Shown in pieces: positions 4,831-52,234 of a stretch of 64,000 nucleotides of DNA; position 1 is the stretch's first letter, and every line of letters starts with the position of its first letter. The notes under the pieces are model-generated. The model was not told the origin of the DNA. It was given only the letters and a program-made list of their open reading frames with translations, and made no database searches. Source of the stretch: Asticcacaulis endophyticus (GTDB lineage Bacteria > Pseudomonadota > Alphaproteobacteria > Caulobacterales > Caulobacteraceae); NCBI RefSeq assembly GCF_014652575.1, contig NZ_BMZB01000001.1, positions 124,001-188,000 of the forward strand. The letters run 5' to 3'. Position numbers and translations under genes: made by a program.

Positions 4831-4906
4831 TGCCCCCCTCCGTCACGGCGCTAATGCGCCGTGCCACCCGCTCCGGCGGCCCGGTCCCCCGGCACGCCGG
4901 GGGAGT
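4831..4906 (-). repeat. REP-like G/C-rich repeat, copy R1
   Basis: Read on the minus strand, a CTCCCCCGGC/GCCGGGGGA hairpin comes first. A GTGGCACGGCGC/GCGCCGTG palindrome follows (4844-4863 on the plus strand), then GACGGAGGGGGGC. This is the same order of blocks as in the repeats at 22893, 23308, 31372 and 31436. It lies between the ends of two convergent genes. Confidence 0.65.
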
Positions 4907-11259: not shown

Positions 11260-11271
11260 AGCCACAAATTA

Positions 11272-11400
11272 TAAATCGTGAGATTACCGCTCTGATGAAA
11301 GCCGTCAGTTTGGATGAGATGCCAGGCGTCTAGCGCCGCAGGTACATTTAAGTACCTGCCAGCGACGACAACGCCGCAGATCGCCAAACTCACGGCTTTA
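11272..11400. repeat. Dispersed palindromic repeat, copy 2
   Basis: This shares the core TAGCGCCGCAGGTAC, loop, AAGTACCTGCCAGCGACG and the left tip TAAATCGTGAGATT with copies 1 and 3. The outer arms are longer and partly different: AAAGCCGTCAGTTTGG near 11300 pairs with CCAAACTCACGGCTTT at 11384-11399. It lies between the convergent cheR and recR genes and supplies the recR stop codon. Confidence 0.75.
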
Positions 11401-15455: not shown

Positions 15456-15718
15456 GGCCGTAAATCCACAAATTTCATGATATTGGCGGCTGAAATGGCT
15501 AAATAATGCTAGGAAATAGACGCAGATCAGGGCTACCCCCTGTTCAAGTCTATTTCCGACGCAGTATGACGCCATTTCGCCGTCCGAAGGATGTGGTCCG
15601 TCTGCACGGACTACGGCGTCGTAAAATTTTGAAAATGTAGACATTTCCAGCAATTTCCCTCCTGGTATCCGCACAAACGGCCTCACACCAATATTATGAA
15701 ATTTATGGATTTACGGCC
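15456..15718. mobile_element. 263-bp element with 31-bp terminal inverted repeats
   Basis: The left arm 15456-15486 (starts GGCCGTAAATCC) and the right arm 15688-15718 (ends GGATTTACGGCC) are inverted copies matching at 29 of 31 positions. Inside are further complementary pieces, such as GGAAATAGAC with GTCTATTTCC, and TGCTAGGAAA with TTTCCAGCA. The whole unit could fold as one long branched hairpin. It fills the gap between pheA and the amidotransferase gene. No transposase is encoded. It resembles a MITE or a long intergenic repeat. No target-site duplication was recognised. Confidence 0.75.
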
Positions 15719-21841: not shown

Positions 21842-22888
21842 ATGAGCCTCATCACGTCTGCCGCTTCCTTGCCTGGCCTGCTTACCCCTTCGGCGGCCTA
21901 TAAGCCGTTCCGCTATCCGTGGGCCTTTGATTATTGGCAAAAGCAGCAGCAGGTCCATTGGCTGCCCGAAGAAGTGCCGCTGGGCGAAGACTGTAAGGAT
22001 TGGGCGTCCAAGCTCAATGACAATGAGCGCAACCTCCTGACCCAGATTTTCCGATTCTTCACCCAATCCGACATTGAGGTGCAGGACAACTACATGGAAA
22101 AATACGGTCGCGTGTTCAAGCCGACCGAAATCAAGATGATGCTGGCGGCGTTTGGCAATATGGAAACCGTCCATATAGCCGCCTATGCGCTTTTGCTTGA
22201 GACCATCGGCATGCCGGAATCGGAATTTGGCGCGTTCATGCAGTATCAGGCCATGCGCGACAAACACGATTTCATGCAGAAATTCGGTGTCGAAACCAAT
22301 GCCGATATCGCCCGCACCCTAGCTATGTTCGGCGGCTTTACCGAAGGTCTGCAATTGTTTGCGTCGTTCGCCATGCTGATGAACTTCCCGCGCTTCAACA
22401 AGATGAAGGGCATGGGCCAGATCGTATCGTGGTCCGTGCGCGATGAAAGCCTGCACTGCGAAGGCATCATCAAGCTTTATCACGCCTTTAACAAGGAAAC
22501 CGGCGCAGTCACCAAGGCCGTGGCCGATGACATCGTCGATTGCTGCAAGAATGTGGTGATGATGGAGGACAACTTCATCGACCTGGCGTTTGAGATGGGG
22601 CCGGTCGAGGGCATGACCCCGCACGATATCAAGCAATATATCCGCTACATCGCTGACTGGCGCCTGCGTCAGTTGGAACTGCCGGAAGTCTACGGCGTCA
22701 AGGAAAACCCGCTGCCGTGGTTGCAGGTGCTGCTGTCGGGCGTTGAACACGCCAACTTCTTTGAGGCCCGCGCGACGGAGTATTCCAAGGCCGCCACCAA
22801 GGGTCAATGGACCGGCGGCGAAGGCGTCTGGGGCGCGTTTGATCAACTGATGAAAAAACGCTCCGACGCCACGCTGGGCACGAACTAA
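21842..22888 (+). CDS. nrdB: Class Ia ribonucleotide reductase beta subunit
   Basis: NrdB holds the diiron-tyrosyl radical used by NrdA to reduce ribonucleotides. The metal ligands are visible: Asp/Glu in SDIEVQDNY near residue 78, Glu and His in METVHIAAY with the radical Tyr four residues after the His, Glu in GGFTEGLQLFASF, and Glu and His in VRDESLHCEGI. The 348 residues include no ATP-cone. The alpha subunit gene is not adjacent but 17 kb downstream on the other strand. The control region carries a CtrA box and NrdR-like boxes, fitting S-phase expression. Confidence 0.95.
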   Translation: MSLITSAASLPGLLTPSAAYKPFRYPWAFDYWQKQQQVHWLPEEVPLGEDCKDWASKLNDNERNLLTQIFRFFTQSDIEVQDNYMEKYGRVFKPTEIKMMLAAFGNMETVHIAAYALLLETIGMPESEFGAFMQYQAMRDKHDFMQKFGVETNADIARTLAMFGGFTEGLQLFASFAMLMNFPRFNKMKGMGQIVSWSVRDESLHCEGIIKLYHAFNKETGAVTKAVADDIVDCCKNVVMMEDNFIDLAFEMGPVEGMTPHDIKQYIRYIADWRLRQLELPEVYGVKENPLPWLQVLLSGVEHANFFEARATEYSKAATKGQWTGGEGVWGAFDQLMKKRSDATLGTN

Positions 22889-22892
22889 ATAC

Positions 22893-22947
22893 CTTTCCTC
22901 CCCTGCAATGCGGGGGAGGTGGACGCGAAGCGGACGGAAGGGGCATC
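22893..22947 (+). repeat. REP-like repeat, copy R2 (left flank of DUF559 gene)
   Basis: The hairpin CCTCCCCTGCA/TGCGGGGGAGG is followed by TGGACGCGAAGCGGACGGAAGGGGC. The GGAAGGGG end doubles as the ribosome binding site of the DUF559 gene. An inverted copy (R3) flanks the other side of that gene. Confidence 0.75.
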
Positions 22948-23307
22948 ATGCGCCCACAGATTAAACTCCCCCTCGCCCGTAAACTTCGCCGTGAAATGAC
23001 GCCACCGGAAGTCATGATCTGGTCACGACTAAAAGGCGCGCCCAACAGCGAACTCCGCTTTCGCAGGCAACATCCTGTTGGGCCTTATGTGCTGGATTTT
23101 TATTGCGCCAAAGCCCGATTGGCTATCGAGATTGATGGTCAGATTCACGGATTGGCTGTCGTGGCGCATAAGGATGAGCAACGCGACACATGGTTGCGGT
23201 CGCAAGGCATCGACGTGATCCGCATAAACGCTGCGGATGTAATGGCGGATGCGGATGCCGTCGCCGGGATCATTTGGGATAGCGCCAGCGCCAGATTACA
23301 GCGCTAA
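22948..23307 (+). CDS. DUF559 (PD-(D/E)XK-like) nuclease-fold protein
   Basis: This 119-residue protein belongs to the DUF559 group, related to very-short-patch-repair endonucleases. The fold signatures are ARKLRREMTPPEVMIWSRL, FRRQHPVGPYVLDFYC with the putative catalytic Asp, LAIEIDGQIHG with the Glu-x-Asp pair, and DTWLRSQGIDVIRINAADVM. Activity and target are not established for the family. The gene is bounded on both sides by inverted copies of a REP-like repeat, the left one providing its Shine-Dalgarno. This gives the look of a 480-bp mobile cassette. Not in an operon with nrdB, apart from read-through. Confidence 0.9.
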   Translation: MRPQIKLPLARKLRREMTPPEVMIWSRLKGAPNSELRFRRQHPVGPYVLDFYCAKARLAIEIDGQIHGLAVVAHKDEQRDTWLRSQGIDVIRINAADVMADADAVAGIIWDSASARLQR

Positions 23308-23374
23308 TGCCCCCTCCACCACGTTCGCCCTGATGGGCGCGTGGTCCCCCTCCCCCGCTGCGCAAGGGAGGAAA
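23308..23374 (-). repeat. REP-like repeat, copy R3 (right flank of DUF559 gene)
   Basis: Read on the minus strand it runs CCTCCCTTGCGCAGCGGGGGAG, then GGGACCACGCG, then GTGGTGGAGGGGGCATTA. The order of blocks is the same as in R2, in opposite orientation. It begins at the stop codon of the DUF559 gene and ends next to the following small gene. Confidence 0.75.
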
Positions 23375-23377
23375 AAA

Positions 23378-23638
23378 CTAACCCTGCGATAATAGCATCA
23401 ACCCGAACAGAACCGCCGCGCCGATTACATAGCCGACCTTGACGGAGGCAAAGCGCGGTGTAAGCAAAGCGCGCGCCACATGAAGGGCAATCACTAGCCC
23501 CAAAAGCTGAAACGACAGGCCGGCATTGAACCCGAACGACGTAAAGGCCACAAACACATAGATCAGGCTCAGCAACCAGAACAGCGTCACCGACACCACC
23601 GTCAGCGAATGCCACAATGCCTGACCGAGTTCTTTCAT
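23378..23638 (-). CDS. Small two/three-span membrane protein
   Basis: This 86-residue hydrophobic protein of unknown function has three likely membrane helices, at about residues 13-33, 40-58 and 67-84. The start ATG 23638 has GGAGGA about six bases upstream. It is flanked by the REP-like repeat R3 downstream and a divergent lipoprotein esterase gene upstream. No family is recognised. Confidence 0.7.
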   Translation of the reverse strand: MKELGQALWHSLTVVSVTLFWLLSLIYVFVAFTSFGFNAGLSFQLLGLVIALHVARALLTPRFASVKVGYVIGAAVLFGLMLLSQG

Positions 23639-31365: not shown

Positions 31366-31371
31366 TCTTTT

Positions 31372-31511
31372 CTCCTCCCCATATCATGGGGAGGTGGCAG
31401 CCTGTTAAGGCTGACAGAGGGGTACATGGCCGTCCGTACCCCTCCGTCTCGTAAACTCGACACCTCCCCACACGTGGGGAGGAGAGGCTCTCCTGCAACA
31501 GGGGAGGTTCT
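31372..31511. repeat. REP-like repeats R4-R6 (inverted pair plus partial)
   Basis: R4 (31372-31425) runs CTCCTCCCC, loop, GGGGAGGTGGCAGC, a small hairpin, then GACAGAGGGGTAC. R5 (31436-31484) is its inverted partner, ending CTCGACACCTCCCC, loop, GGGGAGGAG. A partial copy CTCCTGCAACAGGGGAGG follows to 31511. The head-to-head pair resembles a BIME. It lies between cpaA and cpaB. Confidence 0.75.
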
Positions 31512-39992: not shown

Positions 39993-40015
39993 GCTTTAAT
40001 ATTATTGCGCTGATT

Positions 40016-40136
40016 AAAAATCGTGAGATTTGCGGGGAGTATTAGGCGCCTAGCGCCGCAGGTACAGATAGTACCTGCAAGCGACGGTAACGACATAATC
40101 GTCGACACGGGCCGCCCCGCAAAGACCGCGATTTTT
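40016..40136. repeat. Dispersed palindromic repeat, copy 3
   Basis: The left arm AAAAATCGTGAGATTTGCGG and the right arm CCGCAAAGACCGCGATTTTT are complementary at about 18 of 22 positions. The core is TAGCGCCGCAGGTAC, loop, GTACCTGCAAGCGACG as in copies 1 and 2. It lies between the convergent cpaH and nrdA genes, and its tip overlaps the nrdA stop codon. Confidence 0.82.
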
Positions 40137-51965: not shown

Positions 51966-52031
51966 TACCCCCTCTGACACTTTAAGCTTTGCTTAAAATG
52001 TCAGCTCCCCCTGCCACAGGGGGAGTTCTTA
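51966..52031 (-). repeat. REP-like repeat, copy R7
   Basis: On the minus strand a CTCCCCCTGTGGCAGGGGGAG hairpin variant is followed by CTGACATTTTAAGC/GCTTAAAGTGTCAG and then AGGGGGTAT. The order of blocks is as in the other copies, with a different middle stem. It starts next to the decarboxylase stop codon. Confidence 0.65.
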
Positions 52032-52149
52032 TAGGCGTCACAAAACACTCATCAAAACCTTATTTGCCAAAGCCTTTCGCTTGGTTTATAGGAGCCGCAG
52101 TTTTTATCTTAGTTGCGCTAACACACCGCTCTTAGAGCACAGATTTGCC

Positions 52150-52234
52150 TCCCCATCGCGCCGTCTGGGGGATTACGGGCACTCCCTCTCCGCAAGGGGA
52201 AGGGGGCGCATGGGGGAAACTGGTTTCCCCCATG
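52150..52234 (+). repeat. REP-like sequence R8 with an 11-bp hairpin
   Basis: Degenerate G/C-rich repeat blocks (CTCCCTCTCCGCAAGGGGAAGGGGGCGC) are followed by a perfect hairpin. CATGGGGGAAA (52209-52219) pairs with TTTCCCCCATG (52224-52234) across a CTGG loop. It lies 48 bases before the next start codon and would be in the 5' untranslated region if transcription begins upstream. Confidence 0.6.

Follow-up and report, generated by a model that had tools for sequence, protein, structure and literature searches.

A DUF559 nuclease gene between inverted hairpin repeats: a probable minimal mobile element of Asticcacaulis with counterparts in other bacteria

The stretch of DNA considered here, hereafter the window, comprises 64,000 nucleotides of the Asticcacaulis endophyticus genome (contig NZ_BMZB01000001.1, positions 124,001 to 188,000 of the forward strand; coordinates below are those of the window), and holds at 22897-23371 a unit of 475 bp in which a gene for a 119-residue nuclease of the DUF559 family lies between two hairpin repeats. 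The left repeat (22897-22943) opens on the + strand with an outer hairpin (hp1, 22897..22919; CCTCCCC-TGCAATGCG-GGGGAGG) that marks the start of the element, followed by an inner hairpin (hp2, 22923..22933; CGC-GAA-GCG), which covaries across elements, and by a third, G-rich arm (GGAAGGGG, 22936..22943) four bases 5' of the ATG at 22948. The gene itself (22948..23307, + strand, 360 bp) is succeeded by the right repeat (23310-23371), which is inverted relative to the left and thus assigned to the - strand, with a third arm (23310..23317; CCCCCTCC on the + strand), an inner hairpin (hp2, 23318..23345; ACCACG/CGTGGT with an inner CGCCC/GGGCG stem), and a mismatched outer hairpin (hp1', 23350..23371; CTCCCCCGCTGCGCAAGGGAGG) that marks the end of the element. 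Pairwise comparison of related elements places the limit of homology at hp1 or a few bases outside it. Both repeats follow one plan. The outer hairpin, whose 5' arm consists of pyrimidines (CTCCCC-loop-GGGGAG; imperfect in the right repeat), is accompanied by an inner hairpin and by a G-rich third arm, which reads GGAAGGGG on the left and, on the other strand, GGTGGAGGGG on the right. The two ends are different variants of this plan (left GGTGG...ACGGAAGGGG, right GGGGGACC...GGTGGAGGGG), with an inverted flank score, as defined below, of 18.5. An earlier note on this DNA had described the two repeats as inverted copies with blocks in common; their inverted orientation stands, whereas the right repeat lacks the GTGG and GACGG blocks. 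It had also traced the Shine-Dalgarno sequence of the gene to the left repeat, and the position of GGAAGGGG agrees with this, such that the arm plausibly doubles as the ribosome-binding site of the nuclease gene. A scan of 22700-23500 against Rfam returned no match near threshold (best E 0.77, which we read as chance), and a known structured RNA was rejected for this interval on that basis.

The assignment of the gene to DUF559, made in the earlier note, is upheld by a strong profile match (PF04480; E 4e-27, 94.7 bits against a cut-off of 20.6, residues 9-110). Its position between left and right hairpin repeats in inverted orientation is likewise confirmed from the sequence. AlphaFold yields a confident model of the protein (predicted local distance difference test score 88.7, predicted template-modelling score 0.81), with a PD-(D/E)XK fold resembling those of Vsr and I-Bth0305I. 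The top structural matches are 3hrl, itself a protein strongly detected by the DUF559 profile, and the catalytic domain of I-Bth0305I (the latter with TM-scores of 0.64-0.65 and a Foldseek E of ~1e-4), and profile searches concur (3hrl, E 4e-25; I-Bth0305I, 3r3p, E 4e-5). Resemblance to Escherichia coli Vsr (1cw0) is much weaker (Foldseek E 0.19). We take YcjD to be the E. coli DUF559 protein. A passage of earlier work reports that a profile of YcjD detects Vsr (PMC1189080). Across 16 sequences D50, E61, D63, H67, D76, and R79 are invariant, and in seven of the nine gene pairs tried the ratio of nonsynonymous to synonymous substitution rates (dN/dS) lies between 0.09 and 0.18 (of the other two, one was interrupted by a stop codon and the second yielded no dS), from which we conclude that purifying selection keeps the protein functional. 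PADLOC returned weak, partial matches (DpdF, 1e-7 over 52 residues; mREase_II, 0.014), and as the gene stands alone between its repeats, membership of a defense system was set aside.

Matched inverted ends are strongly enriched around DUF559 genes. We aligned the 250 bp upstream of each gene to the reverse complement of the 250 bp downstream, and counted a flank score of 18 or more as positive, in three sets of loci, each of which represents the best-scoring results of its search as opposed to a random sample. The genus set derives from 25 Asticcacaulis genomes (labelled G000 and so on), of which 23 contain 113 DUF559 matches, up to 10 per genome, and 96 loci were examined; the second set combines 30 loci from the class with 28 further loci from the phylum; and the third takes the best 80 of 461 confirmed loci in named genomes (78 domain hits scored, four at contig ends skipped), at least nine of which are places also present in the genus set. 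With each domain counted once, 73/95 in the genus reach the threshold (80/103 before deduplication, vs 8/590 at shifted control positions), as do 33/58 in the class and phylum (controls 2/339) and 67/78 domain hits in the named genomes (controls 6/436). A stricter test, for a pyrimidine-armed hairpin with a perfect 7-bp stem no more than 250 bp away, finds one on both sides of the gene at 41/95, 30/57, and 47/77 loci, respectively (controls 0/368, 1/224, and 0/288), and on at least one side at 72/95, 54/57, and 66/77 (controls 14/368, 9/224, and 12/288). GIY-YIG loci gave 0/29 positives, and as these are mostly long, UvrC-sized frames and hence a poor size-matched control, the main comparisons are those with shifted positions and with other open reading frames (ORFs). 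Among 774 ORFs of 110-200 residues in ~864 kb of the A. endophyticus genome, a sample picked in part where repeats had already been seen, three reach a score of 18: two are DUF559 genes, including that of the window, and the remaining one reflects an unrelated event, a gene start duplicated in inverted orientation. This is the sole scored ORF outside DUF559 with inverted flanks; other genes were rejected as cargo of such ends. The enrichment that the earlier note had proposed to look for is therefore present, with inverted copies much commoner at DUF559 genes than at either shifted positions or other ORFs.

The ends also match their own partners, and their own protein. Within genomes, the right end of the same element is the best match of the left end in 70/92 elements, where 21 would be expected. 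When the 4135 pairs of elements from different sites are compared, cross-end similarity is correlated with the identity of the proteins (Mantel 0.31, where the highest of 500 permutations gave 0.13), these statistics excluding the same-site reversed pairs L087/L083 and L056/L088. Strongly similar ends occur in none of 396 pairs below 35% protein identity and in 71% of the 14 pairs above 75%. When 358 ends were pooled from the genus and named sets, some of them shared, 70 fitted one pattern (a) and 107 another (b); among those with a long enough inner hairpin, 47/58 and 62/75 inner hairpins, respectively, are distinct, and a full six-pair inner stem forms in 33% (a) and 51% (b), as compared with 2% and 4% when partners are shuffled. 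Judged by these comparisons, the inner hairpins keep pairing while their sequence changes, and the ends evolve together with the DUF559 protein.

Related repeats without a gene lie elsewhere in the window, at 4831, 31372, 31436, and 51966, as the earlier note had claimed and sequence comparison now supports; a fifth, degenerate copy that it placed at 52150 fits no element of the genome (score 10.0), and is unsupported. These solo copies are closer to other DUF559 elements of the genome than to the window unit: that at 4831..4906 (- strand) is nearest to the ends of element L007 (19.0), and that at 51966..52032 (- strand) to those of L003 (26.5), while the inverted pair with a short spacer at 31368..31486 is nearest, weakly, to L008 (16.5 for the copy at 31372 and 14.0 for that at 31436). 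Across the 3.95-Mb genome the pattern CTCCCC-N(4-14)-GGGGAGGTG has 48 exact occurrences, vs 0 for the reversed pattern, and all eight DUF559 places have repeats on both sides by eye, six of them reaching a score of 18. The ~864-kb sample contains 89 outer hairpins, seven of which lack the third arm, and its unselected 464 kb contains 40, vs 6 in the reversed sequence. In the same sample, 32/74 gene-free repeats score at least 25 to an end of one of the eight elements, and gene-free repeats are on average most similar to the element ends in G020, G007, and G000, the clade of the window genome. Inverted brackets of up to 2 kb number 26, of which 15 have 70-146 bp between the hairpins, leaving no room for a gene; these, like the pair at 31368..31486, resemble REPINs, the inverted doublets formed by repetitive extragenic palindromic (REP) sequences. 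Another five span 738-1408 bp, and the three inspected hold other ORFs, among which no repeated cargo family was established, although small proteins related to each other, and of unknown function, occur in two of these long intervals between repeats (L349 7599-8162 and L351 8249-9028). Separately, the window contains a second dispersed repeat unlike the hairpin repeats in sequence (AAATCGTGAGATTTGCGG...CGCCGCAGGTACA; at least three copies, at 2787-2868, 11268-11374, and 40013-40066), and, at 15456-15718, a pair of inverted 31-nt arms, 94% complementary and 201 nt apart.

Comparison of fixed sites between relatives reveals gain or loss, and reversal, of such units. The site of the window unit was located in the 25 genomes by its upstream neighbor (21842..22888, + strand), presumably a ribonucleotide reductase small-subunit-like gene, and is bordered on the right by an 86-residue ORF (23378..23638, - strand). 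In G020 the upstream gene is followed by another insert and a close copy of the unit, with a protein 91% identical. DUF559 genes of greater distance lie behind the upstream gene in G022 and G023 (47% and 63%), and other inspected relatives have different sequence directly behind it; G007, in which the upstream gene is 93% identical, has a single hairpin at this point, CCTCCCC-TATCTTCAAA-GGGGAGG. In G013 (L128) the same place holds an insert that we take to be a MazF/PemK-type gene, and given this and the DUF559 genes of G022 (L142) and G023 (L143), the intergenic place resembles a hot spot of insertion. A different site holds just AGAACTCCCCCTGTTGCAGGGGGCGTTCT in G000 and G020, the element in G007 and G017, with a gene that looks frameshifted in G017, and the reversed element, beside further inserts, in G013. 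A second case of reversal was found between G011 and G003. Overall, the 93 elements compared, which come from part of the 113 places, map to 40 sites, and 23 of these sites have a single element.

These sites bear on how the elements might spread. A homing-type process, in which a free-standing homing endonuclease colonizes REP-like repeats by breaking a hairpin (hp1) or an empty repeat pair, with repair from an element copy producing the repeat-gene-repeat arrangement, would dispute the mechanism and leave the status of the units as mobile elements intact. The closest characterized fold is that of a homing endonuclease, I-Bth0305I; at one site the empty state consists of one hairpin, specific to the family, in which AGAACTCCCCCTGTTGCAGGGGG is found as in the element ends; and the element is present at that site in both orientations, which a palindromic target would lead one to expect. 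A mechanism of homing or whole-element type accounts for the single-hairpin sites no less well than transposition of the kind performed by REP-associated tyrosine transposases (RAYTs). On the other hand, hairpins without a third arm are rare (the 7/89 noted above), so free targets would be scarce; filled sites retain hairpins at both ends, and would be unprotected from cutting; and the single hairpin may be a mere deletion scar. We consider homing somewhat short of probable, but a serious alternative for the mechanism, and one that would be equally new.

DUF559, a family whose role is unknown, is common, with a match in 108/299 genomes of our phylum sample, and the association with matched ends recurs in Caulobacterales, Sphingomonadales, Hyphomicrobiales, two Deinococcus species, and Pseudanabaena; a locus in a Phycisphaerales metagenome-assembled genome (L292) scores 31. 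In some distant loci, such as those of Deinococcus, the third arm lies outside the hairpin as opposed to inside it. Among 12 scored loci in plasmid records, five reach 18 (two Deinococcus species, Pseudanabaena, Sphingomonas, and Azospirillum). In the Sphingomonas parapaucimobilis plasmid (L386 1120-1610) the element lies between the NAD(P) transhydrogenase genes pntAA and pntAB, beginning right after one stop codon, and its last arm (GGGGAGG) falls just 5' of the next start codon, placed like a ribosome-binding site. In Deinococcus psychrotolerans an element lies between paaD and paaZ. The gene also keeps other company. Among the cyanobacterial plasmids (L381, L382, L391, and L392), DUF559 is found beside a DUF1156 gene in Picosynechococcus and Synechocystis, within one long annotated ORF in Pseudanabaena, and, again in Synechocystis, upstream of a gene annotated as pglX of the bacteriophage exclusion (BREX) system. 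In the E. coli H240 record (L384 ~1110-1200), the DNA directly upstream of DUF559 contains a long palindrome (CACCTCATTCTGAC...GTCAGAATGAGGTG) that differs from the G/C-rich ends seen at other loci.

Taken together, these comparisons suggest that the unit at 22897-23371 probably belongs to a family of mobile elements of very small size, ~475-600 bp, and of the form repeat-DUF559-repeat, in which the nuclease acts on the ends and spreads both itself and the gene-free repeats. The earlier note had likened the arrangement to that of RAYT transposases and their REPs. The RAYT-like idea gains strong circumstantial support from the enrichment, the covariation of ends with protein, the polymorphic sites, and the absence of a Y1_Tnp (PF01797) match from 21/25 genomes of the genus, that of the window included (the remaining four have matches); binding and cutting of the repeats by the protein are the part of that idea that we infer. 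A RAYT acting in trans was rejected for the window genome, where the Y1_Tnp profile has no match. We envisage that the DUF559 nuclease would recognize the DNA of the hairpins at its own ends, perhaps when these form a cruciform or lie single-stranded during replication, and would nick or cut at these or at a related hairpin. Host repair or replication could then copy the element, or a gene-free repeat pair, into a new site; alternatively it could remove the element, with one hairpin remaining. Gene-free repeats would, on this model, be non-autonomous derivatives maintained in trans. As the G-rich arms of the repeat may act as ribosome-binding sites, the element could sit inside operons with little harm.

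Several points weigh against this interpretation. Scores below 18 account for 22/95 domains in the genus, 25/58 in the class and phylum, and 11/78 hits in the named genomes, and the scored loci are, as stated, the best of longer lists with at least nine named loci overlapping the genus set. On plasmids, 7/12 loci lack matched ends (Neisseria gonorrhoeae, E. coli, Photobacterium, Methylobacterium, Sinorhizobium, Picosynechococcus, and Synechocystis). Inspection of the polymorphic sites by eye showed no target-site duplication, and what is duplicated could be the hairpin as a whole; the single hairpin may represent either the target before insertion or the scar of a deletion between two hairpins, and opposite orientations could arise by ordinary recombination between inverted repeats. 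Nuclease binding, cleavage, and transposition of the element are themselves inferred from sequence. Lastly, repeats and gene are at times dissociated: G005 and G024 carry 22 and 44 pattern matches (0 and 1 in reversed controls) and no DUF559, G010 has four DUF559 matches and just eight repeat matches, and over 25 genomes the two counts correlate weakly (rho 0.32, p 0.12). The earlier note had named abundance of the repeats in genomes without DUF559 as evidence that would tell against its idea, and this has in part been observed.

Such dissociation, together with how common gene-free pairs are and the five of 26 brackets (738-1408 bp) of which the three inspected hold other ORFs, would suit a passenger role, in which another enzyme or recombination spreads the repeats, and DUF559 is cargo or a domesticated nuclease caught between repeat pairs. 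Several observations speak against a passenger role: not one of the 774 sampled ORFs outside DUF559 has matched hairpin ends, the association recurs in several orders and in two Deinococcus species and Pseudanabaena, the end type tracks protein identity at unrelated sites, and 21/25 genomes are without a Y1 transposase. We deem this explanation unlikely. A function in host repair was considered also. Here, DUF559 proteins would be Vsr-like mismatch-repair nucleases, and the repeats mere terminators or regulatory hairpins insulating a dangerous gene. Further to the points above, a passage of a published report (PMC12907096) runs counter to mobility, in that its authors interpret a Caulobacter DUF559 protein as a mismatch-repair nuclease, and relates that one DUF559 member sets off the DNA-damage response in a Caulobacter mutant. 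Runs of A or T follow some of the hairpins, which could be terminators. However, the presence of up to 10 copies per genome, the patchy distribution over sites (93 elements at 40 sites, 23 with a single element), inverted ends that match their respective partners and not some shared terminator, and insertion between the genes of operons are ill-suited to a housekeeping gene, and we judge this explanation quite improbable.

A broader proposal can be made, the chances of which we regard as evenly poised: that DUF559 proteins are the missing mobilizers of a widespread superfamily of G/C-rich hairpin repeats, and define a new class of autonomous element (~475-600 bp, with one protein of ~120 residues, a homing/Vsr-type PD-(D/E)XK nuclease, and no transposase) present in parts of several phyla, whose gene-free derivatives account for much of this intergenic repeat population. 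Were DUF559 the enzyme of a minimal mobile element, orphan intergenic repeats in great number would gain an owner, the REP/RAYT lifestyle would have a second, chemically unrelated solution, and the mover of REP-like repeats in bacteria without RAYTs would become testable in a single-protein system. Our literature search, the coverage of which excluded many subscription journals and all bioRxiv preprints, found no paper joining DUF559 to repeats.

With respect to known systems, DUF559 units have terminal inverted repeats, as do insertion sequences (IS), and resemble miniature inverted-repeat transposable elements (MITEs) and the IS200/IS605 group in combining a minimal one-gene element with short, gene-free derivatives that have the same kind of ends. 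MITEs rely on a known IS transposase. DUF559 units differ from both in enzyme class, and no target duplication was recognized by eye at them. Among nucleases of the PD-(D/E)XK type, selfish proliferation has been proposed for COG4636 genes in cyanobacteria (Feder and Bujnicki, 2005, PMC551604); that is another family, and the abstract of the work makes no mention of flanking repeats. CGTC-tagged REPs are described, in a passage of Di Nocera et al. (2013, PMC3733652), as mainly alphaproteobacterial, mostly arranged as inverted dimers, and without a dedicated transposase. One variant of the DUF559 ends contains CCGTC-hairpin-CCA, and is in this respect similar. The classical tag with its AT-starting stem of 8-9 bp (CGTCATTCC), sought on either strand within 250 bp of DUF559, is however nearly absent (1/95, 0/58, and 1/77 loci), and the CGTC-tagged REPs are therefore not the same repeats.

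The best-characterized functional relative, by both profile and fold, is the homing, Vsr-like nuclease I-Bth0305I. We take I-Bth0305I to be an intron-encoded phage enzyme, its molecule name in the PDB being that of a mobile intron protein; at the DUF559 gene, by contrast, no intron is seen, and the gene lies between hairpin repeats. In way of life the units resemble REPs and their RAYTs (REPtrons). Short extragenic palindromic repeats, often in gene-free inverted pairs, are common to both, as are a single small nuclease gene bracketed by inverted repeats with gene-free copies elsewhere, and the existence of several kinds of repeat that each go with a protein of their own. The differences lie in the enzyme, which is a PD-(D/E)XK nuclease of the Vsr or homing kind and not a Y1 HUH transposase, and in the ends, where inspection finds two hairpins and a third G-rich arm in place of a GTAG-type tag and a single palindrome. 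Given this other enzyme class, and the lack of Y1 from 21/25 genomes, the DUF559 unit is not a member of the REP/RAYT group, though it would work alike. On our best reading, it works like REP/RAYT or homing elements, and belongs to neither.
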